Shown in pieces: positions 8,552-16,609 of a stretch of 45,181 nt of DNA (its first letter is position 1; every line of letters begins with the position of its first letter). Position numbers and translations under genes: made by a program. Where the stretch lies: assembly GCA_013373015.1 (NCBI GenBank), contig JABXIQ010000024.1:1-45181 (forward strand), written 5' to 3'. The notes beneath the pieces are model-generated. The model did not search any database, had not been told where the DNA came from, and worked only from the letters and a program-made list of their open reading frames with translations. The DNA comes from Kangiellaceae bacterium. GTDB taxonomy: Bacteria > Pseudomonadota > Gammaproteobacteria > Enterobacterales > Kangiellaceae.

Positions 8552-9766
8552 CTAGGATCTTACCTGCATACTACGTTTATGCCAAACCAATTGCTCGGCT
8601 TCAGCTAACCTTTCACCAATTTTGGCTAATTCTATACGCCCACGATCTGAAACCTGCTGAATCGATTGCTGCTTCATAAAGCTTAAAACACTCAAACCAC
8701 TTGAACGGTTTGCCGTGCCCATTGTGGGTAAAGTATGGTTTGGTCCAGAGCAATAATCACCAAAAGCCACTGCACTATTTTCACCAATGAATAAAGAACC
8801 ATAGTGAGTTAACTGCTGACTATCAATCCGTTCATCGGCTAATAACAAATGCTCTGGCGCATAACTATCAGAAAACTTAATCATTTGTTCAATATCATCC
8901 GCCTTCAATAAAACAATTTGACCAGTTGCTTGTAATTTGGCAATTTCTTGATTGCTTTGTATGGCAGATTTAACCTTAGATAAGGTTTGCTCGCATTCAG
9001 ATACCAGAATACTTACTGCTTGGGGGTCATGCTCTGCTTGAGCTGCCATATCCGCAATTATCCATTCATTATTGATATTCTTTCCTGCCAATATCAACAA
9101 TTCACTAGGCCCCGCCGCTACATCAATTGCCACTTTATTCTGTAGCAATTGTTTGGCAGCATTCACATATTGATTACCAGGACCTACAATCATTTGCACA
9201 GGTGTACAGGATTGATAACCATAAGCCAAAGCTGCAATAGCTTGCGCGCCACCTAAATGCAAAAACTCAGTAGCACCCGCCAAACTCGCCGCCGCCAAGA
9301 TGGCGGGATGATTTGATGGCGAACATGCAATTCGTTGTTCAGATCCCGCAATTCTGGCTGGTATCAGTGTCATCAATGCTGTAGAAATTAACGGATATCG
9401 CCCACCGGGTATATAGGCTCCAATGCGATTGATAGGCTTATAACAAAATCCGTAACGTCCTGTTTCATCTTCAAAATACTTATCTTCGAGCTGCTGCTTT
9501 TGAAAATGACAGAAAGTTTCAATACGTTGTGCAGCACTTTTAATGGACTCGGCTAGTTCATCACTCAGTGGATAATCTGCAAATGGTTTTAAGTGAATGA
9601 AACTCGGAGCAAAACCATCAAACTGTTGACTCAACTCATCTATTCTACTATCACCCTTTTGTTCAATTGTTTGCAATAGCTCAGCAACCACTTGTTTTGA
9701 TTGACTTTTCAGCTCAAGATCAGGGCGTTTCCACTGCAAACAATTAACAAATATCTCACCCTGCAT
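8552..9766 (-). CDS. hisD: Histidinol dehydrogenase
   Basis: A 404-residue HisD, catalysing the last two oxidations from histidinol to histidine with NAD. Landmarks: IGAYIPGGRYPL, the substrate-site VAAGPSELLILAG, MAAQAEHDPQA (zinc/catalytic region), YAPEHLLL, GDYCSGPNHTLPT and SVLSFMKQQS. It is somewhat shorter than E. coli HisD (434 aa), mainly at the N-terminus. AGGAGCAAGAA precedes the ATG. The start overlaps the hisA-IE gene by 11 bp. It is the last gene of the operon, whereas enterobacteria place it second. Confidence 0.93.
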   Translation of the reverse strand: MQGEIFVNCLQWKRPDLELKSQSKQVVAELLQTIEQKGDSRIDELSQQFDGFAPSFIHLKPFADYPLSDELAESIKSAAQRIETFCHFQKQQLEDKYFEDETGRYGFCYKPINRIGAYIPGGRYPLISTALMTLIPARIAGSEQRIACSPSNHPAILAAASLAGATEFLHLGGAQAIAALAYGYQSCTPVQMIVGPGNQYVNAAKQLLQNKVAIDVAAGPSELLILAGKNINNEWIIADMAAQAEHDPQAVSILVSECEQTLSKVKSAIQSNQEIAKLQATGQIVLLKADDIEQMIKFSDSYAPEHLLLADERIDSQQLTHYGSLFIGENSAVAFGDYCSGPNHTLPTMGTANRSSGLSVLSFMKQQSIQQVSDRGRIELAKIGERLAEAEQLVWHKRSMQVRS

Positions 9767-11024
9767 TTCTTGCTCCTAATTCATTAATGATCTGTTGAGC
9801 AGAAACTCCTTTAGCTTTGGCATTGACCAGTGCAAAATAAAGTACATCAGCTGCTTCCCAACGCACCTCATCACTATCAATCGCCTCAATCAATTCTTGG
9901 CATTCTTCATTCAATTTTTCTTGTTGCAACTGTGGTGAGTCGAATAACTTTTTTGAAAATGATTGCTTCGCATCACTTGTCATTCGAGAGTGTAATACTT
10001 TGTCTAAAGTATTTAAGTCAAACTTTGGGCTTTGCGTTGCGAAACAACTATAACGCTCAAAATGACAAGCATTACCATCTTGTTTAACTTTAAAAATCAA
10101 ACTATCACCATCACAATCATAATCAATATTAACTAATTGTTGTTGATTACCACTGGTCAACCCTTTTTGCCAGAGCTCTTGACGTGAACGACTGTAGTAA
10201 ACGCCTTTGCGCAACTTGATGGCCTGTTTCAAAGATTCTTGCGACGAATAGGCTAGCATCAGTATTTGCTGAGTGTCATTATCTTGAACAATAGTTGGTA
10301 TTAACTCTGATTTATTGGAAGCCAACTTACTTGAGCCTGACTTATTGAAATCCAAACACGCAAATAAAGCATCTGATAGCTTTAACTTTCCAGTATATAC
10401 AGACATACCTATCTGACTATTAGCGCCGAGTGTATTAATAAATTTGATATCATCTAAATCGGTAATCCCTCCAGCAACCGTAACTGCAATTTTTGATTTA
10501 TTGATAACTTGCTGAATACGATCGCGATCAAGGCCTTGCATCAATCCTTCTTTTTTAACTTGAGTATATAAAAACTCACTACAATTTCCTTGTAGCTCAT
10601 CAATAAGATCCAGTACTTTTATAGAGCCAGCAGACTTCCAACCGTGCGTGACCCATTCATCATCTTTAGCATCAATGGCAAATATTAATTGGCTTTTAGG
10701 AAGCTTTTTAACAAACTCCTTGCGGCAAGAAGTACCAATAATAATTTTTTTAGCGCCACTAGCAAGATAGTCTCTTGCGGTTTCGTAATCACGAATCCCA
10801 CCTCCTACGCGACAAGGATATTGAGCTATCAACTGTTTAATCAAACTTTTATTATCACCACGTCCCAAAGCAGCATTTAAATCAATAATGGCCACCTCAC
10901 CGTACAGTGAAAACTCTTCTAGCAATTCAAAAACATTATCACATTCAACAATTTTTTTGTCAGGATCACCTTGTTGTAACTGTACGGCTTTGCCATCTAA
11001 TAAATCAATTGATGGAATTAACAT
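9756..11024 (-). CDS. hisA-hisIE: HisA-HisI-HisE trifunctional fusion
   Basis: One 422-residue frame joins three histidine enzymes. Residues 1-about 230 are a HisA half-barrel isomerase (IPSIDLLDGKAVQLQQGD with Asp7; VGGGIRD; VAGGI). About 240-335 is HisI, PR-AMP cyclohydrolase (WQKGLTSG, DYDCDGD and the zinc cysteines in ACH and SCF). About 336-422 is HisE, PR-ATP pyrophosphohydrolase (EECQEL and EAADVLYFAL). The HisA second catalytic position, usually the Asp of an RDGT-like motif, reads KKEG (Glu159). A Ser/Lys/Asn-rich linker (about 227-240) separates HisA from HisI. The gene overlaps hisF and hisD by a few bases. HisI-HisE fusions are common; joining HisA in front is unusual to me. Confidence 0.9.
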   Translation of the reverse strand: MLIPSIDLLDGKAVQLQQGDPDKKIVECDNVFELLEEFSLYGEVAIIDLNAALGRGDNKSLIKQLIAQYPCRVGGGIRDYETARDYLASGAKKIIIGTSCRKEFVKKLPKSQLIFAIDAKDDEWVTHGWKSAGSIKVLDLIDELQGNCSEFLYTQVKKEGLMQGLDRDRIQQVINKSKIAVTVAGGITDLDDIKFINTLGANSQIGMSVYTGKLKLSDALFACLDFNKSGSSKLASNKSELIPTIVQDNDTQQILMLAYSSQESLKQAIKLRKGVYYSRSRQELWQKGLTSGNQQQLVNIDYDCDGDSLIFKVKQDGNACHFERYSCFATQSPKFDLNTLDKVLHSRMTSDAKQSFSKKLFDSPQLQQEKLNEECQELIEAIDSDEVRWEAADVLYFALVNAKAKGVSAQQIINELGARNAG

Positions 11025-11794
11025 ACTCTTACCTCAATATTATTTTTTAATAATTCTTGTTTAACTTGCTCTACACTGAACTCACCCCTATGAAACATTC
11101 CCGCAGCTAACGCAGCATCACTGCCCGCGTTGAAAGTATCCACAAAGTGTTCTGGAATTGCAGCACCACCCGATGCAATAACTTGAATAGAAAGTTGACG
11201 ACTTATTTTTTGCATTAAATCATTATCAAAGCCAGTACCCGTTCCATCCTTATGCATTGCAGTTAACAATACTTCTCCTGCACCTCTTTGTTGGATTTCG
11301 GTTAGCCATCTAAATGGCTCTAAATCAGTTTCTTTATGGCCTCCATTGATAAAAACCTTATAATCTCCATTTATTTTCTTATCCAAATCAACAGCCACAA
11401 CTAGAGATTGAGACCCAAAACCTAGACTGATTTGGTTGATTAAATCAGGATTGTTTACTGCAGCAGAGTTAAGAGCCACTTTATCAGCGCCAGCATTTAA
11501 GAAGTCCGAAACATCCTTATAACTATTGAGGCCGCCACCAACGGTAAATGGAATCGATAAATTCTTCGCTACTTCTGTTACGGTTTGCAAAGCGTTAGAT
11601 CGATTTTCCCTAGTTGCTTTAATATCAAGAAAAACAATTTCATCAGCCCCTTGCTGTTGGTAACGCAACGCAAGTTCAACAGGATCCCCCATATCTTTCA
11701 AACCTTTAAAATTTACGCCTTTCACCACTCGACCATTGGCTACATCCAGACACACAATAACTCTAGGCTTCAATCTATTTATTGAGTTAGACAT
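11018..11794 (-). CDS. hisF: Imidazole glycerol phosphate synthase cyclase subunit
   Basis: A 258-residue HisF barrel, which with HisH makes imidazole glycerol phosphate and AICAR. It has VIVCLDVANGRVVKGVNF (catalytic Asp near residue 16), FTVGGGLNSYKD, GADKVALNSAAV, the second catalytic Asp in MHKDGTGTGFD, and VIASGGAAIPEHF. Length is standard. It overlaps hisH by 16 bp and hisA by 7 bp, indicating tight coupling. The order hisH-hisF-hisA is reversed at the end compared with E. coli hisH-hisA-hisF. Confidence 0.93.
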   Translation of the reverse strand: MSNSINRLKPRVIVCLDVANGRVVKGVNFKGLKDMGDPVELALRYQQQGADEIVFLDIKATRENRSNALQTVTEVAKNLSIPFTVGGGLNSYKDVSDFLNAGADKVALNSAAVNNPDLINQISLGFGSQSLVVAVDLDKKINGDYKVFINGGHKETDLEPFRWLTEIQQRGAGEVLLTAMHKDGTGTGFDNDLMQKISRQLSIQVIASGGAAIPEHFVDTFNAGSDAALAAGMFHRGEFSVEQVKQELLKNNIEVRVC

Positions 11795-12378
11795 TGCTGT
11801 AAAATCTCCTCGCCTTGTGATCCTGATTTTTCGGGATGAAATTGAAATGCCATCAACCCTTTACTTTGGATTGCAGCCACAAATTGTTCTCCATAATAAG
11901 TTGTAGCAATTTCGTTTTCGGAACTTTTAACCGCATAACTATTAACAAAATATACCGTTTTTTGCTGTAACAAACTGATAGAAGCATCTATCTCGCACCA
12001 GCCTACCATTGGTTGCTTTGGACTTTTTAACTTAGTTACAGTTCCTTTTACTAGACCTAGCCCTCTTATGCCTAACCCATCGTTGTCCAAGTCTTCTGCT
12101 GACCATTCAAAAAATATTTGCATGCCCACACAGATGCCAATTATTTTTTTATCACTCTGATACCAATCAATAATCACTTTATCCAACTGTGAACTTCTCA
12201 AGTTGCTCATCACAGTCCCAAATCGACCTTGACCTGGAATAATCATTGCCACAAATTCTTTCTGCGATATTTGCTCTGCTGATTGAATGAGTTCAGGCTC
12301 AAATCCAATTCGTCTAACACAGGAAAAAATACTAAATAAATTGCCTGCTTTTGTATCTATAACAGCCACTTTCTTCAT
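11779..12378 (-). CDS. hisH: Imidazole glycerol phosphate synthase glutaminase subunit
   Basis: A 199-residue class I glutamine amidotransferase, supplying ammonia to HisF. The P-G-Q-G-R oxyanion segment, the nucleophile in GICVGMQIFF and the His/Glu pair in FQFHPEKSG complete the catalytic triad. The ATG overlaps the hisB stop as ATGA, and the 3' end overlaps hisF, so stoichiometric translation of the heterodimer is likely. Confidence 0.93.
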   Translation of the reverse strand: MKKVAVIDTKAGNLFSIFSCVRRIGFEPELIQSAEQISQKEFVAMIIPGQGRFGTVMSNLRSSQLDKVIIDWYQSDKKIIGICVGMQIFFEWSAEDLDNDGLGIRGLGLVKGTVTKLKSPKQPMVGWCEIDASISLLQQKTVYFVNSYAVKSSENEIATTYYGEQFVAAIQSKGLMAFQFHPEKSGSQGEEILQQCLTQ

Positions 12379-12968
12379 AGCACACCCTTTGAACTGTTAC
12401 TGACATCAACTACTTGCAAAGCTTCTTTCAAAGCAAATGCCAACCCTTTAAAGGCTGCTTCAATTAAATGATGATTATTATCAAAATATTCTGCCTTAAT
12501 ATGTAATGAACATTGTGCATTAATAGCAAAACTATAAAAGAAATGTTTCCACATCTCTGTCGCAACATTGCCTACTAGTTCACGAGTAAAAGGTAAGTCC
12601 GTAACAGAATATGGCCGGCCACAAATATCTACTGCCACCAAGATCAAACTGGCATCCATTGGTAACAACCTTTGTCCATAACGCTGAATTTTAGGTTGCT
12701 TACGCCATGCTTGATTAAGCGCCTGCCCCAAACAAATAGCGACATCTTCAATTAAATGATGATCATCCACCTCAATATCACCTTGTGCTTGCAAGTCCAG
12801 ATCCCAACCTGCATGCAAAGCTAATTGCGTCAACATATGATCAAAAAATGGTAAGCCCGTATTAATATTCAGCTTTTGTTGGCCGTATATGTTTAATTCC
12901 AATTGGATGCTGGTCTCTTTAGTAGATCGACTTAGTTCCACGATTTCTCTTGTTATATTGTTACTCAT
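12375..12968 (-). CDS. hisB: Imidazoleglycerol-phosphate dehydratase, monofunctional HisB
   Basis: A 197-residue IGP dehydratase. Manganese-binding motifs are present: PFFDHMLTQLALHAG, DDHHLIEDVAICLGQAL and the C-terminal NNHHLIEAAFKGLA. The protein is dehydratase only. The N-terminal HAD histidinol-phosphatase domain of enterobacterial HisB is absent, so that activity must come from elsewhere, most simply from the HAD domain fused to HisC immediately upstream. The start shares an ATGA with the hisC stop, and AGAGG precedes it. Confidence 0.94.
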   Translation of the reverse strand: MSNNITREIVELSRSTKETSIQLELNIYGQQKLNINTGLPFFDHMLTQLALHAGWDLDLQAQGDIEVDDHHLIEDVAICLGQALNQAWRKQPKIQRYGQRLLPMDASLILVAVDICGRPYSVTDLPFTRELVGNVATEMWKHFFYSFAINAQCSLHIKAEYFDNNHHLIEAAFKGLAFALKEALQVVDVSNSSKGVL

Positions 12969-14635
12969 ATCAGAACCTCTAATTGATTAATATTTTCAAG
13001 AACAATATCAGCGCCAGCATTGAGTAAACTGCTTCTTATCAACTCGCTAGTAGCTATGCCTATGGCTAGAACCCCTGCAAACTTGGCTGCTTGCATATCA
13101 TCTGGAGCATCACCAAACATCCAACATGTATCCGCTTGAAAAAAGTCTTTTGTTTTATTGATTCCTTCCGGTGAAGGCTTTGATTGGCTAACATCATCAT
13201 CGCTAATCAGGATCGTATTTTTTAATCCTAGTTTTTCTAAACCTTGAATGGCTTCTTGCTTTGGCCTGCCGGTCACTACAGCAGTATTCAATAATTTTGA
13301 TTTTGCGTTAAACAGACGATTGATTAAAGATTGCTCTATCAAAGGTTGTTCTTGCTCACACAAACCAGCTTTCTGTTTATTTCCAAGGTAGATATCTTGA
13401 AAAATACTGGTTACTTCATCTAACGAAATATCTGTGCCCAACTCTTTTATCAGTTGCCGCGTTAACTTCCAGTCATTATTAAAACCTCCTCGAGATCGAG
13501 CCTCTAAGATCATTTCAGGTTCAACAACTATCCCGGTAACTTGCTTTACTGTTTCAATAATGCACTGATCGTAGCTTTTACTGGTGTCAATTAGAACTCC
13601 ATCCATATCGAAACACAGTAGTTTTGGCCTTAATGCCAAGCGTAAGGCCTGCAGTAACCGTTCAAGATAAAATGGTATGCTTATTCGGATCGCCGCAATA
13701 GCTTTATTCGATGCAGTAAGTCCAACAAGAGCATCTTTAATTTGGATTGCATTGTTATTGCAAGCAGCCACAATCAATTGCAGTTTCAAAGGTTCTCCTT
13801 GCACAAACACGAAATTTCCCTGACTTTCTATAACAGATAATCCACTATCTTTTAGCATGTTGGTAATCAGCTCACGATTTAGAGCTATCTGACGAGAGTA
13901 ACTCTGCACTTCCAACTTAGCGCTTTCGGTAAACGCTTGTAGAGCGATAGTTAGATTGGCATTAGAAACATTAAAAGGCATAGCTAGTACTGAAAACTTC
14001 TTAATCAGCTTGCTACTTGCTAACAAATATCCAACTCTAATCCCTGCCAATCCATAGGCTTTAGATAGTGTTCTTAATAGAATAATGTTATCAAATTGCT
14101 CAATAAGCTTTAGAGAACTTATGCCATCAGTAGTGAACTCAATATAAGCTTGATCAAGAAACAACCATGCGTTTTTTTCTCTAACTTTTTGTGCTGCGGC
14201 TTCTATTTGCTCTATGCTTAAGGTTTCACCAGTAGGATTATTAGGACTGGTTAGTACAAGAATATCCCCATCCTTTACTGCATCCAAAGCTGCATCAAGA
14301 TCAATAGTTAAATCCTCTTGAGCTTCAATCAACTTAGTATCCAGTTGCCACAAATCTTTTCCTGACCAGTACTGACTAAATACAGGTAAAGGCATAACTA
14401 ACTGCTTGTTGTTCAGCTTTGCCAATTTAAACAACAATTCAATGGCTTCATCACCACCATTGGTAATAAGAAGTTGATCTTTATTTACCTTGAGTTGCTT
14501 AGTTATAGCTTCAACTAATAAACCTTTATCTGGATAAGACCATAGCTTTTGCTTATTAACTGCATTAGCATCTAACCAATATGGCACACTATCCGAGCGC
14601 TCATTAAAATCAAGTTTGAGTAATTTTGTATTCAT
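12965..14635 (-). CDS. hisC: HisC aminotransferase fused to HAD phosphatase
   Basis: A 556-residue fusion. Residues 1-about 332 are a histidinol-phosphate aminotransferase, with LDFNERSD at the N-terminus, SPNNPTG (130-136), DQAY, and the PLP lysine in TLSKAYGLAGIRVGY (Lys192). Residues about 338-556 are a HAD subfamily IA phosphatase with all four motifs: FDMDGVLID (Asp343, Asp345), Thr455 in VTGRP, Lys486 in SKPSP and FGDAPDD (Asp509, Asp513). A cap region contains SRGGFNNDW (about 381-389). The HAD half probably dephosphorylates histidinol phosphate, because HisB here lacks its phosphatase. AGGAG before the ATG at 14635 decides the start over an in-frame GTG at 14641. The fused phosphatase role is inference. 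Confidence 0.92.
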   Translation of the reverse strand: MNTKLLKLDFNERSDSVPYWLDANAVNKQKLWSYPDKGLLVEAITKQLKVNKDQLLITNGGDEAIELLFKLAKLNNKQLVMPLPVFSQYWSGKDLWQLDTKLIEAQEDLTIDLDAALDAVKDGDILVLTSPNNPTGETLSIEQIEAAAQKVREKNAWLFLDQAYIEFTTDGISSLKLIEQFDNIILLRTLSKAYGLAGIRVGYLLASSKLIKKFSVLAMPFNVSNANLTIALQAFTESAKLEVQSYSRQIALNRELITNMLKDSGLSVIESQGNFVFVQGEPLKLQLIVAACNNNAIQIKDALVGLTASNKAIAAIRISIPFYLERLLQALRLALRPKLLCFDMDGVLIDTSKSYDQCIIETVKQVTGIVVEPEMILEARSRGGFNNDWKLTRQLIKELGTDISLDEVTSIFQDIYLGNKQKAGLCEQEQPLIEQSLINRLFNAKSKLLNTAVVTGRPKQEAIQGLEKLGLKNTILISDDDVSQSKPSPEGINKTKDFFQADTCWMFGDAPDDMQAAKFAGVLAIGIATSELIRSSLLNAGADIVLENINQLEVLI

Positions 14636-14643
14636 AAGCACTC

Positions 14644-15492
14644 CTACAGCACCTTGCGAATTGGTGTTTCTAGGATGTCTGTAGCGCCCGCTGCTATTAG
14701 CTGCGGCAGTAGATCTTTGGTCAATCTGCGTTCAATCGCGGCTTTAATGGCAAAACCATCTGCGTTGTACAGTTGACTCACAGTTGGTGAGCGCATGGCA
14801 GGAAGTAACGAAACGATGGTATCGATATTATCTTGGCTACAATTCATTTCCAGCAACACACGCTTACGACCATTCAATACCCCACGCATCAATAATAATA
14901 AATCATCAATCTGTTTTTTCTTTTCAGGGTTGCTCAGTACCTGTTTATTAGCAATCAATTGGGTTGAACTTTGCATAACTGTACCAACAATTTTTAGTCG
15001 GTTAGCACGGATAGTTGATCCAGTACTGGTATTATCAATTACCATATCTGCATCTTCAGGCGGAAAGACTTCTGTCGCGCCATAAGCTCTGAACAGTTGA
15101 TAATCCAAGTTTTGAGAGTCTAAATAGCTGGAAGCAATTTTTTTATATTCTGAAGCAACGATGATTTTTCGTTGTTTGACCTGTTCCCAATCCCATTGCT
15201 CAGGGATACAGGCTACAATTTTGACAGGGTTAAAAGCCAAATCTTCGAGTATCTCAACGTCAGCACTTTGTTCCTCGATCCAGTCTAATCCTGCAAAGCC
15301 AATATCATGCTGTCCTAAAGCTACCATTTCAGGAATATTCTGACTTTTCAATAACTTAACCTCTATATCACAACCAAACAAAGCCGGTCTATAATTACGA
15401 CTATCCCCTACCAAAGTTAAACCAATATCCGATAATATTTCCGCAACATTGTCATAAAGCTTGCCTTTAGGAATTACCATTTTTAGTGCCAT
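14644..15492 (-). CDS. hisG: ATP phosphoribosyltransferase, long form
   Basis: A 282-residue HisG, the first and feedback-controlled enzyme of histidine synthesis. It has VIPKGKL at the N-terminus, DIGFAGLDW, and the PRPP-binding ADMVIDNTSTGSTIRAN (about 151-167). The ACT-like regulatory C-terminal domain characteristic of the long form follows from about residue 205 and ends in ATDILETPIRKVL. A TTG at 15504 is in frame, but GGAGA lies just before the ATG at 15492, so I use that. It is the first structural gene after two leader peptide/terminator units. Its wording is distant from E. coli HisG outside the active site. Confidence 0.93.
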   Translation of the reverse strand: MALKMVIPKGKLYDNVAEILSDIGLTLVGDSRNYRPALFGCDIEVKLLKSQNIPEMVALGQHDIGFAGLDWIEEQSADVEILEDLAFNPVKIVACIPEQWDWEQVKQRKIIVASEYKKIASSYLDSQNLDYQLFRAYGATEVFPPEDADMVIDNTSTGSTIRANRLKIVGTVMQSSTQLIANKQVLSNPEKKKQIDDLLLLMRGVLNGRKRVLLEMNCSQDNIDTIVSLLPAMRSPTVSQLYNADGFAIKAAIERRLTKDLLPQLIAAGATDILETPIRKVL

Positions 15493-15526
15493 TTTCTTCT
15501 CCAACTATTATTTAAAAACTTGTCAT

Positions 15527-15561
15527 AAAAAAACCCCGTTGTTCTTTCGAGCAACGGGGTT
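15527..15561 (-). terminator. his attenuator terminator 2 (proximal to hisG)
   Basis: A perfect 10-bp GC-rich stem (AACCCCGTTG at 15532-15541 pairing with CAACGGGGTT at 15552-15561) with a ten-base loop, followed on the minus strand by seven U. It lies between the 19-codon His leader and hisG, so it would stop transcription before the operon. The upstream arm can instead pair with CGACGGTGG at 15597-15605 (eight pairs around one bulged U), giving an antiterminator. Confidence 0.88.
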
Positions 15562-15593
15562 TATTGAGTTCGCTATCATACAGCCAATAGTCG

Positions 15594-15653
15594 CTACCAC
15601 CGTCGCTTGCGCAGTGAATGATGATGGTGATGTAAACTAATGCTGATATTCAT
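15594..15653 (-). CDS. hisL: Histidine operon leader peptide 2, 19 codons
   Basis: A 19-codon frame, MNISISLHHHHHSLRKRRW, with five consecutive His codons (CAT CAC CAT CAT CAT at 15618-15632). It ends 33 bases before the terminator stem in front of hisG. Stalling at the His codons when charged tRNA-His is scarce would free CGACGGTGG (15597-15605) to pair with the terminator's 5' arm. When translation is efficient, the ribosome reaches the stop codon, covers that segment and the terminator forms. A competing 1:2 stem is ATCACC (15626-15631) with GGTGGT (15596-15601). I see no strong Shine-Dalgarno sequence. The assignment rests on the His run, position and folding. Confidence 0.88.
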   Translation of the reverse strand: MNISISLHHHHHSLRKRRW

Positions 15654-15707
15654 AATCTGTAACTGTCTTGTATTGTTAATATGTAAAATAAACTATAGCC
15701 CAAAACG

Positions 15708-15738
15708 AAAAAAACCCCGCTTTTGGCGAGGCTTTTTT
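15708..15738 (-). terminator. his attenuator terminator 1 (distal)
   Basis: On the minus strand AGCCTCGC (15726-15733) pairs with GCGGGGTT (15713-15720) around a CAAAA loop, including two G-U pairs, and is followed by seven U. It comes after the 24-codon His leader and before the second leader. The A run on the other side makes it able to work in both directions. Its 5' arm can alternatively pair with GGCGGTGCT (15771-15779) with one mismatch, forming an antiterminator. Confidence 0.82.
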
Positions 15739-15757
15739 GTGAATTTTAAACTACAAA

Positions 15758-15832
15758 TTAAACACAATAGAGCACCGCCATCAAGTTCTTATGATGGTGG
15801 TTATGGTGTTTTTGCGTATTAATAGTATTCAT
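15758..15832 (-). CDS. hisL: Histidine operon leader peptide 1, 24 codons
   Basis: A 24-codon frame beginning MNTINTQKHHNHHHKNL, with five His codons within six codons (CAC CAT AAC CAC CAT CAT at 15791-15808). It is followed by its own terminator at 15708-15738. Three mutually exclusive stems can be drawn: CCATCA (15792-15797) with TGATGG (15778-15783); GGCGGTGCT (15771-15779) with the terminator's 5' arm; and the terminator itself. This is the standard his attenuator arrangement, complete and independent of the second one downstream. No Shine-Dalgarno sequence is evident before the ATG. Confidence 0.85.
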   Translation of the reverse strand: MNTINTQKHHNHHHKNLMAVLYCV

Positions 15833-15839
15833 GGTTTCG

Positions 15840-15868
15840 ATTAAAACGGATCTTATAACTAAGGTCAA
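15840..15868 (-). promoter_or_regulatory. Candidate his operon promoter
   Basis: On the minus strand TTGACC (15863-15868) and TTTAAT (15840-15845) are separated by 17 bp, each matching five of six sigma-70 consensus bases. Transcription would then begin only a base or so before the ATG of leader 1, making that leader nearly leaderless. An alternative -10, TATAAG (15852-15857), would leave about 13 bases of untranslated RNA but has a poorer -35. Either placement puts the promoter just after the ispD stop codon. Confidence 0.5.
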
Positions 15869-15910
15869 CAGTTACCATGAATATTTATTAAATCTATATA
15901 ACTATTGGTT

Positions 15911-16609
15911 TTATTGATTCAGCCAAATAGAAGCCAGCATCATATCTTCTGGTTCGGTAATTTTCAGGTTCTTGCGATTACCAATAACTAGGCTAGGACT
16001 AAACCCTTGTGCTTCCATAGCTGAGGCTTCATCAGTCACGAGCAAATCATTTTGTATTGCTAAATCAATGGCTTGCGCCAACTTTCCAATTTCAAAAAAC
16101 TGCGGGGTTTGTGCTAGCCAAATAGTTTCTCGAGGAATGGTTTTATCAATAGTTAGCCGTGCATTACTGACTTTTACTGTATCAACCGATGGAATGGCTA
16201 AAATAGCACCATCAGCTGAATTCTCTCTAGCACGAATCAAATTATCAATATGATGACTGGATAAACATGGTCGCGCTGCATCATGCACCATGACCCAGTC
16301 ATTCAAACCACCTTGCTCAATAATATAATTGAGCGCATTCAAAACAGAGTTGGCTCTTTCCTCACCACCAGCGACAGTAATAATTTTTTGATGAGAAGAC
16401 ACTTTCAACTTTGACCAATAGCGATCATTGGGATGTAAAGGAACGACAACTTTGTAAATTGAAGAATGTTCTAGAAAGTTACTTAAGCTGTGCTCGAGAA
16501 TGGTCTTACCGTCAACTTCTAAGTATTGCTTAGGAAGATCTGACTGCATACGCGAGCCAATCCCAGCAGCGGGAATGATAGCCCAAATTTTCTCAGCGGA
16601 CGTATTCAT
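15911..16609 (-). CDS. ispD: 2-C-methyl-D-erythritol 4-phosphate cytidylyltransferase
   Basis: A 232-residue MEP-pathway nucleotidyltransferase. It has AIIPAAGIGSRMQSDLPKQY (CTP-binding glycine-rich loop and Lys), VHDAARPCL, IPSVDTVK, PRETIWLAQTPQ and VTDEASAMEAQG. AAGGAA about nine bases before the ATG at 16609 favours that start over an in-frame TTG at 16618. It follows ftsB as usual, but its normal downstream neighbour ispF is displaced by the histidine operon. Confidence 0.94.
   Translation of the reverse strand: MNTSAEKIWAIIPAAGIGSRMQSDLPKQYLEVDGKTILEHSLSNFLEHSSIYKVVVPLHPNDRYWSKLKVSSHQKIITVAGGEERANSVLNALNYIIEQGGLNDWVMVHDAARPCLSSHHIDNLIRARENSADGAILAIPSVDTVKVSNARLTIDKTIPRETIWLAQTPQFFEIGKLAQAIDLAIQNDLLVTDEASAMEAQGFSPSLVIGNRKNLKITEPEDMMLASIWLNQ

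Follow-up and report, generated by a model that had tools for sequence, protein, structure and literature searches.

Genes and leader elements upstream of hisG

The window (the whole 45,181-nt stretch of DNA analysed here) contains a his operon on the minus strand, for which Pfam domains gave the gene order hisG, hisC-HAD, hisB, hisH, hisF, hisA-hisIE, and hisD. Upstream of the operon ends a 235-aa frame that we take to be ispD, a name assigned without a search. Two attenuator units lie on the minus strand between ispD and hisG. The features of the locus are listed by position:

8552–14641, minus strand: hisC-HAD, hisB, hisH, hisF, hisA-hisIE, and hisD (Pfam domains; gene names assigned here)
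14647–15492, minus strand: hisG (start at 15492), ATP phosphoribosyltransferase with a HisG_C domain, first gene of the his operon
15527–15562, minus strand: terminator 2, consisting of arms 3 and 4 and a U-run
15594–15653, minus strand: leader peptide 2 frame, MNISISLHHHHHSLRKRRW, with five His and an internal start
15595–15608, minus strand: segment 2 of unit 2, AAGCGACGGTGGTA, with either ATCACC (15626–15631) or 15549–15561 as its partner
15708–15738, minus strand: terminator 1, consisting of arms 3 and 4 and a U-run; the antiterminator uses 15723–15734
15758–15832, minus strand: leader peptide 1 frame, MNTINTQKHHNHHHKNLMAVLYCV, with five His, predicted to be leaderless
15770–15781, minus strand: segment 2 of unit 1, ATGGCGGTGCTC, with either CCATCA (15792–15797) or the 5′ arm of terminator 1 as its partner
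15840–15845, minus strand: predicted −10 element, TTTAAT, ending 7 nt before the AUG of leader 1
15863–15868, minus strand: predicted −35 element, TTGACC; TTGACC-17-TTTAAT agrees with the consensus at 10 of 12 positions
ending at 15911: ispD (235-aa frame), upstream of both units

The HisG nearest to that of the window shared 87% identity with it. Within the operon, positions 12965–14641 encode a hisC-like aminotransferase with a HAD phosphatase-like domain fused C-terminally, and hisB comprises the dehydratase domain only; in E. coli, the phosphatase is fused to hisB. At 9756–11024, hisA and hisIE form one fused protein of 422 aa.

The first-pass annotation had described two short frames before hisG, each with five His codons and each followed by a terminator; the frames, their coordinates, and the minus strand were confirmed. 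The protector and antiterminator pairings it had drawn for both units were present in the sequence as well. In unit 1, the protector stem is formed by CCATCA and TGATGG, and the terminator's 5′ arm is the partner of GGCGG; in unit 2, the protector is ATCACC/GGTGGT, and the antiterminator joins GCGACGG with CCGTTGC. The conserved RRW end of leader peptide 2 is probably explained by the pairing bases CGACGG. Judged from the sequence, both units appear to combine the elements of a his attenuator, namely a frame with a His run, an intrinsic terminator (recognised by sequence and stem), and a competing antiterminator.

The his attenuator of E. coli and Salmonella is ribosome-mediated and consists of one unit with three competing stems. 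The locus described here resembles it in having a His-rich frame before hisG, three competing stems, and an intrinsic terminator, but it differs in having two units instead of one, in a first leader that is predicted to be leaderless, and in scoring below the gathering threshold (49) of the Rfam family RF00514 (His_leader), with 29.1 bits for unit 1 and 24.2 bits for unit 2. The match to RF00514 was weak and not specific, since it stayed below gathering and the Thr_leader model scored the units equally well (29.0 and 27.8 bits). No Rfam family reached its gathering score anywhere in the window.

Both strands of the window were scanned for units, a unit being counted when a frame of at most 45 codons held four or more His within 8 codons and had a terminator no more than 100 nt away. 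Exactly the two his units were returned, and none was found in ten dinucleotide-shuffled windows. Both terminators were detected by dedicated scanners and by RNA folding; a generic terminator scan of positions 15000–16500 listed neither of them and returned one site, on the other strand, vs. 1.2 in shuffles.

Conservation, predicted promoter, and competing stems in Kangiella

A hisG gene was found in 19 of the 20 Kangiella genomes examined, the genome lacking it being 55% complete, and both units were present at all 19 hisG loci. Conservation of both leaders in relatives, by which the first-pass annotation had proposed to check its reading, was thus borne out. Both leaders were His-rich throughout (3–6 His in 8 codons). 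Terminator 1 was detected at all 19 loci by the first scanner and terminator 2 at 15; at the remaining four (L011, L012, L013, and L016) terminator 2 was plain in the sequence and found in a second scan. Identity to the HisG of the window went as low as 72%. Leader 2 length, gap length, and spacing to hisG varied among the loci, indicating that the stretch as a whole is not simply frozen. The leader 1 peptide was variable except in the His run and the pairing segments (MNTVMTQI, MIILKAQN, MKTLLNTS). In L013, an in-frame TAG in leader 1 yields a shorter frame ending LAVS while the pairing segments are intact, which is what one would expect if nothing but the His run and the RNA pairing matters. 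No tandem leaders were seen at leuA, ilvB, or trpE in four Kangiella genomes, in which few leaders of any kind were detected.

A promoter-like sequence of the TTGACA-17-TTTAAT type ended 6–8 nt before the AUG of leader 1 in 18 of the 19 Kangiella loci; the other, L010, had a weaker match in register, judged by eye only. Over the 19 loci, the mean promoter score was 10.3/12 before leader 1 vs. 7.8 in shuffles, and 7.4/12 before leader 2 vs. 7.6 in shuffles, with no fixed register in the latter case. A single promoter before leader 1 is predicted. A transcript starting downstream of leader 1 had been named beforehand as evidence against two units in series; the prediction favours the series, the sole good predicted promoter being the one preceding leader 1. 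At the usual spacing between a −10 element and the transcription start, a −10 element ending 6–8 nt before the AUG places the predicted start 0–2 nt before that codon, so that leader 1, with a 5′ leader of 0–2 nt, is probably leaderless. A Shine–Dalgarno-like (SD-like) tetramer preceded leader 1 at none of the 19 loci, leader 2 at three, and hisG at all 19. Its absence alone says little, since such a tetramer is also missing from most single leaders of the order (present before only 27 of 121). Promoters scoring at least 10/12 were found before 5 of the 121 single leaders of the order and lay 28–55 nt before the AUG, unlike those of Kangiella.

These data bear on an arrangement in which each unit is a single attenuator with a promoter of its own: leader 2 would be the working one, and leader 1 with terminator 1 would give a separate short transcript or act as an insulator after ispD. 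Both units look complete, which agrees with this arrangement, and a 9/12 promoter-like match is found at 15679–15652 of the window. However, that match overlaps the start of leader 2, and promoter scores before leader 2 are at shuffle level, without a fixed register, across the 19 genomes. Moreover, only 21–25 nt separate terminator 1 from the AUG of leader 2 in 6 of the 19 Kangiella loci, a gap judged insufficient to hold a separate promoter clear of the hairpin. We consider the two-promoter arrangement unlikely.

The stems of the terminators were well conserved among the 19 Kangiella loci. In terminator 1 (9 pairs), 99.4% of cells were paired and two pairs had changed on both sides, which was matched by 3 of 500 shuffles. 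In terminator 2 (10 pairs), 97.4% of cells were paired, and one pair covaried, being C-G in 11 loci, A-U in 6, G-C in 1, and unpaired in 1. The seven cells with changes on both sides, all in this one pair, were matched by 0 of 500 shuffles; the number of pairs changed on both sides (one) was reached by 493 of 500 and the pair-type count by 204 of 500, and all of these shuffle counts are to be read as other than probabilities, as the shuffles ignore relatedness, which inflates the controls. Cross-pairing between terminators 1 and 2 was considered as a means of coupling the units and found no support, as the seven Kangiella loci in which the C-G pair of terminator 2 has changed (six A-U, one G-C) keep terminator 1 unchanged at the corresponding place.

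The five-pair core of the unit 1 antiterminator was formed in 15–19 of the 19 Kangiella loci and its ends in 3–17. The unit 2 antiterminator was 95.8% paired, with 7 of its 9 pairs formed at all 19 loci, including one that varied between G-U, A-U, and G-C; it was too invariant to give a covariation signal within Kangiella. Pairing of segment 2 with the terminator arm gave duplex energies that, compared with 200 base shuffles of the segment 2 region, were better than 95% of shuffles at 18 of 19 loci for unit 1 and at 19 of 19 for unit 2. RNA folding of the window with an assumed ribosome footprint gave the antiterminator in both units when the ribosome was placed on the His run and arm 4 had not yet been made, and the terminator in both when the ribosome was placed at the stop codon. 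When equilibrium folding was performed with a stalled ribosome and arm 4 in place, the antiterminator persisted in unit 1 of the window and unit 2 reverted to the terminator, as did both units of L003, indicating that the mechanism depends on kinetic order.

The same measurements weigh on the idea that one unit alone responds to histidine, while the leader of the other is decaying and its terminator works at constant efficiency. Such decay might be read from L002, whose unit 1 antiterminator did not outdo its shuffles (0.155), and from L017, whose leader 2 has just three His in 8 codons; against it, both units retain their His runs, terminators, and antiterminators over a range of HisG identities that reaches down to 72%, and we give this idea little credence.

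Leaders outside Kangiella

At 11 of 11 loci from other genera of Kangiellaceae, there was a single leader, with four or more His in a stretch of 8 codons. A survey of 136 further hisG upstream regions (133 from the order outside Kangiella and three from the family, after ten Kangiella matches had been dropped) gave no region with two complete units: 123 had one leader frame of this His density, 12 had none, and one (L172) had a second frame, which lacked both a His run and a terminator. When the bar was lowered to three His, at least two frames were found in 7 of the 136 regions and two terminator-bearing frames in none. This comparison rests mainly on the frames, because the terminator scanner misses some terminators of single leaders.

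Two units were found in 13 of the 68 named loci (L043–L110) that were read for His frames, namely L054 and L062–L073. These belong to 10 Marinicella genomes, two metagenome-assembled genomes (MAGs) whose names stop at class or phylum, and a MAG from Lysobacterales; both hairpins were found in all 13. The promoter-to-AUG spacing of Kangiella recurred before leader 1 in all 12 of the Marinicella-side tandem loci for which sequence was available there, and also before 13 of the 28 non-tandem leaders of the HisG tree (related genera). The antiterminator duplex was better than 95% of shuffles in 11 of 13 Marinicella-side loci for unit 1 and in 8 of 13 for unit 2. Between the groups, the antiterminator had changed on both sides: in unit 1, GGCGG/CCGCC in most Kangiella vs. 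AACGGGG/CCCCGTT in Marinicella, and in unit 2, GCGACGG/CCGTTGC in Kangiella vs. CAACAG/CTGTTG in L054.

A HisG tree of 60 rows was built, from which L031–L042, L081–L086, L089–L110, and the unnamed same-family loci except L024 were omitted as duplicates or as too distant. The 19 Kangiella sequences formed one clade, and no tandem was found in its sister clade of 19 (Pleionea, Aliikangiella, and relatives); on the Marinicella side, 13 sequences had the tandem and 9 lacked it. This distribution takes at least five changes on the tree, in which gain and loss are not distinguishable. Near kin of the tandem Marinicella-side genomes (L052, L058, and L059) had only a leader of the unit 1 type, directly before hisG, indicating that the second unit was gained or lost within this group.

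When the unit 2 model was applied to the 13 tandem loci, unit 2 scored above unit 1 in six, clearly so in L062, L065, L066, and L072 (48–52 vs. 31–39 bits), by less than 1 bit in L068, and also in L054; unit 2 scored below unit 1 in the other seven (L063, L064, L067, L069, L070, L071, and L073), and single leaders reach 50 bits with this model. A single origin of unit 2 in Kangiella and Marinicella is a possibility on these sequences. In six Kangiella loci, the model gave unit 1 20–47 bits, and it gave the single leaders of other genera 24–50 bits, which fits the view of the first-pass annotation that the two units are not a recent duplication. A unit 1 covariance model run class-wide over 369 genomes matched 249 at E ≤ 0.1; many of these matches covered the terminator end only, and they were excluded from all counts, for which the survey anchored on HisG was used instead.

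Two loci from another family of the same order (L271 and L273) have a single leader ending RRQRR or GPRR and a CCCCGTTGG terminator; by eye, these leaders resemble unit 2 more than unit 1. A His-rich frame before hisG was also seen in Melainabacteria and Obscuribacterales (Cyanobacteria-side MAGs; L092, L094, L100, L102, L103, L104, L105, L109, and L110), several of the frames having NHGHHHHHH near their end and each locus having a terminator-like hairpin before hisG. To judge by these sequences, this looks like a his attenuator far outside Proteobacteria.

Proposed mechanism and relation to known systems

With considerable confidence, we interpret the locus as one transcript that carries two consecutive ribosome-mediated his attenuators, with translation of the first leader starting leaderless and that of the second starting internally. 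RNA polymerase would begin on the leader 1 AUG or no more than about 2 nt from it, which would make leader 1 a leaderless message. With charged tRNA-His in ample supply, the ribosome would clear the His run and cover segment 2, terminator 1 would form, and the transcript would end after approximately 125 nt. Under a shortage of charged tRNA-His, the ribosome would stall on the His run, leaving segment 2 to pair with the terminator 1 5′ arm and letting transcription continue. At leader 2, where a second ribosome would load internally, the polymerase would face the same test again, and only polymerases that pass both tests would reach hisG.

We infer termination, stalling, the response curve, and the independence of the two tests from this anatomy. 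Should the two be independent of each other for any given tRNA charge, the probability of readthrough would be p1 × p2, which is arithmetic and not a measurement; log sensitivities would then add and the dynamic range would multiply, at the cost of a lower maximum. The multiplying, AND-like response put forward in the first-pass annotation would be a sound expectation for such a series, and two units in series should switch his expression more sharply than the textbook single unit.

Leader messengers of attenuators that start at the AUG have a precedent in trpL of Sinorhizobium meliloti, to which leader 1 is similar in its predicted start; trpL concerns tryptophan and, in the part of the source consulted, apparently has one leader peptide (PMC7298713). 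That leader 1 might be kept for a product of its own that acts in trans, be it a small leaderless messenger or a peptide, as described for rnTrpL/peTrpL of that species (PMC7298713), is highly improbable: the predicted RNA of ~125 nt, leaderless and ending at terminator 1, is indeed like rnTrpL, which starts at the AUG, but the leader 1 peptide varies outside the His run and pairing segments and is cut short by the earlier in-frame stop in L013.

For two his attenuators acting in series, the nearest relatives in the literature are arrangements with unlike signals or unlike sensors. Tandem attenuators are described for mgtCBR of Salmonella, the operon for MgtC and a Mg transporter, where they respond to two signals, ATP and proline, and are termed a singular example by the authors (PMC3641672). 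As far as the consulted part of that paper describes it, mgtCBR is similar in having two short frames in one leader that control readthrough; its frames serve different signals, whereas both Kangiella leaders carry His runs (19/19, by sequence) and each has its own terminator. Two further papers returned for tandem attenuators appear, in the parts consulted, only to cite mgtCBR (PMC8092293) or to mention Mg transporters (PMC4974804). Sensors in series on one leader are also known as tandem riboswitches, such as that at metE of B. clausii as recounted in PMC3641672, and as double T-boxes, as at the his transporter of Enterococcus (PMC9413887). In the accounts given there, these sense a metabolite or tRNA directly, in contrast to the present locus, where the sensor would be the translating ribosome. 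A second rimP terminator in tandem has also been described (PMC2965389). A histidine attenuator is among the entries in the consulted portion of a Shewanella survey, where the word tandem does not occur (PMC3223726). Searches of an open-access collection returned no case of serial ribosome-mediated attenuators that share one amino acid, tandem his attenuators included. Within what those searches covered, tandem attenuators with different signals and a leaderless attenuator messenger are known, and a pair in series for one and the same amino acid would be new.

According to the model of Elf and Ehrenberg, as presented in the sections consulted, the sharpness of attenuation is set by the race between ribosome and polymerase and by the number and fraction of regulatory codons, and synchronised starts of ribosome and polymerase are essential for it (PMC1183508). 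The leaderless start may help to synchronise ribosome and polymerase at unit 1. More tentatively, and perhaps somewhat short of an even chance, the locus could be an attenuator of two stages that both read the same tRNA charge but differ in their route of translation initiation, the first at a leaderless 5′ end and the second by internal loading. If so, the operon would open only with charged tRNA-His in short supply and both of these routes working, the dynamic range would be multiplied, and brief or partial starvation would be filtered out. Kangiella and Marinicella would represent a natural second solution to the problem of sharpness, consisting of two stacked sensors, for which the sister genera with a single unit would serve as controls.
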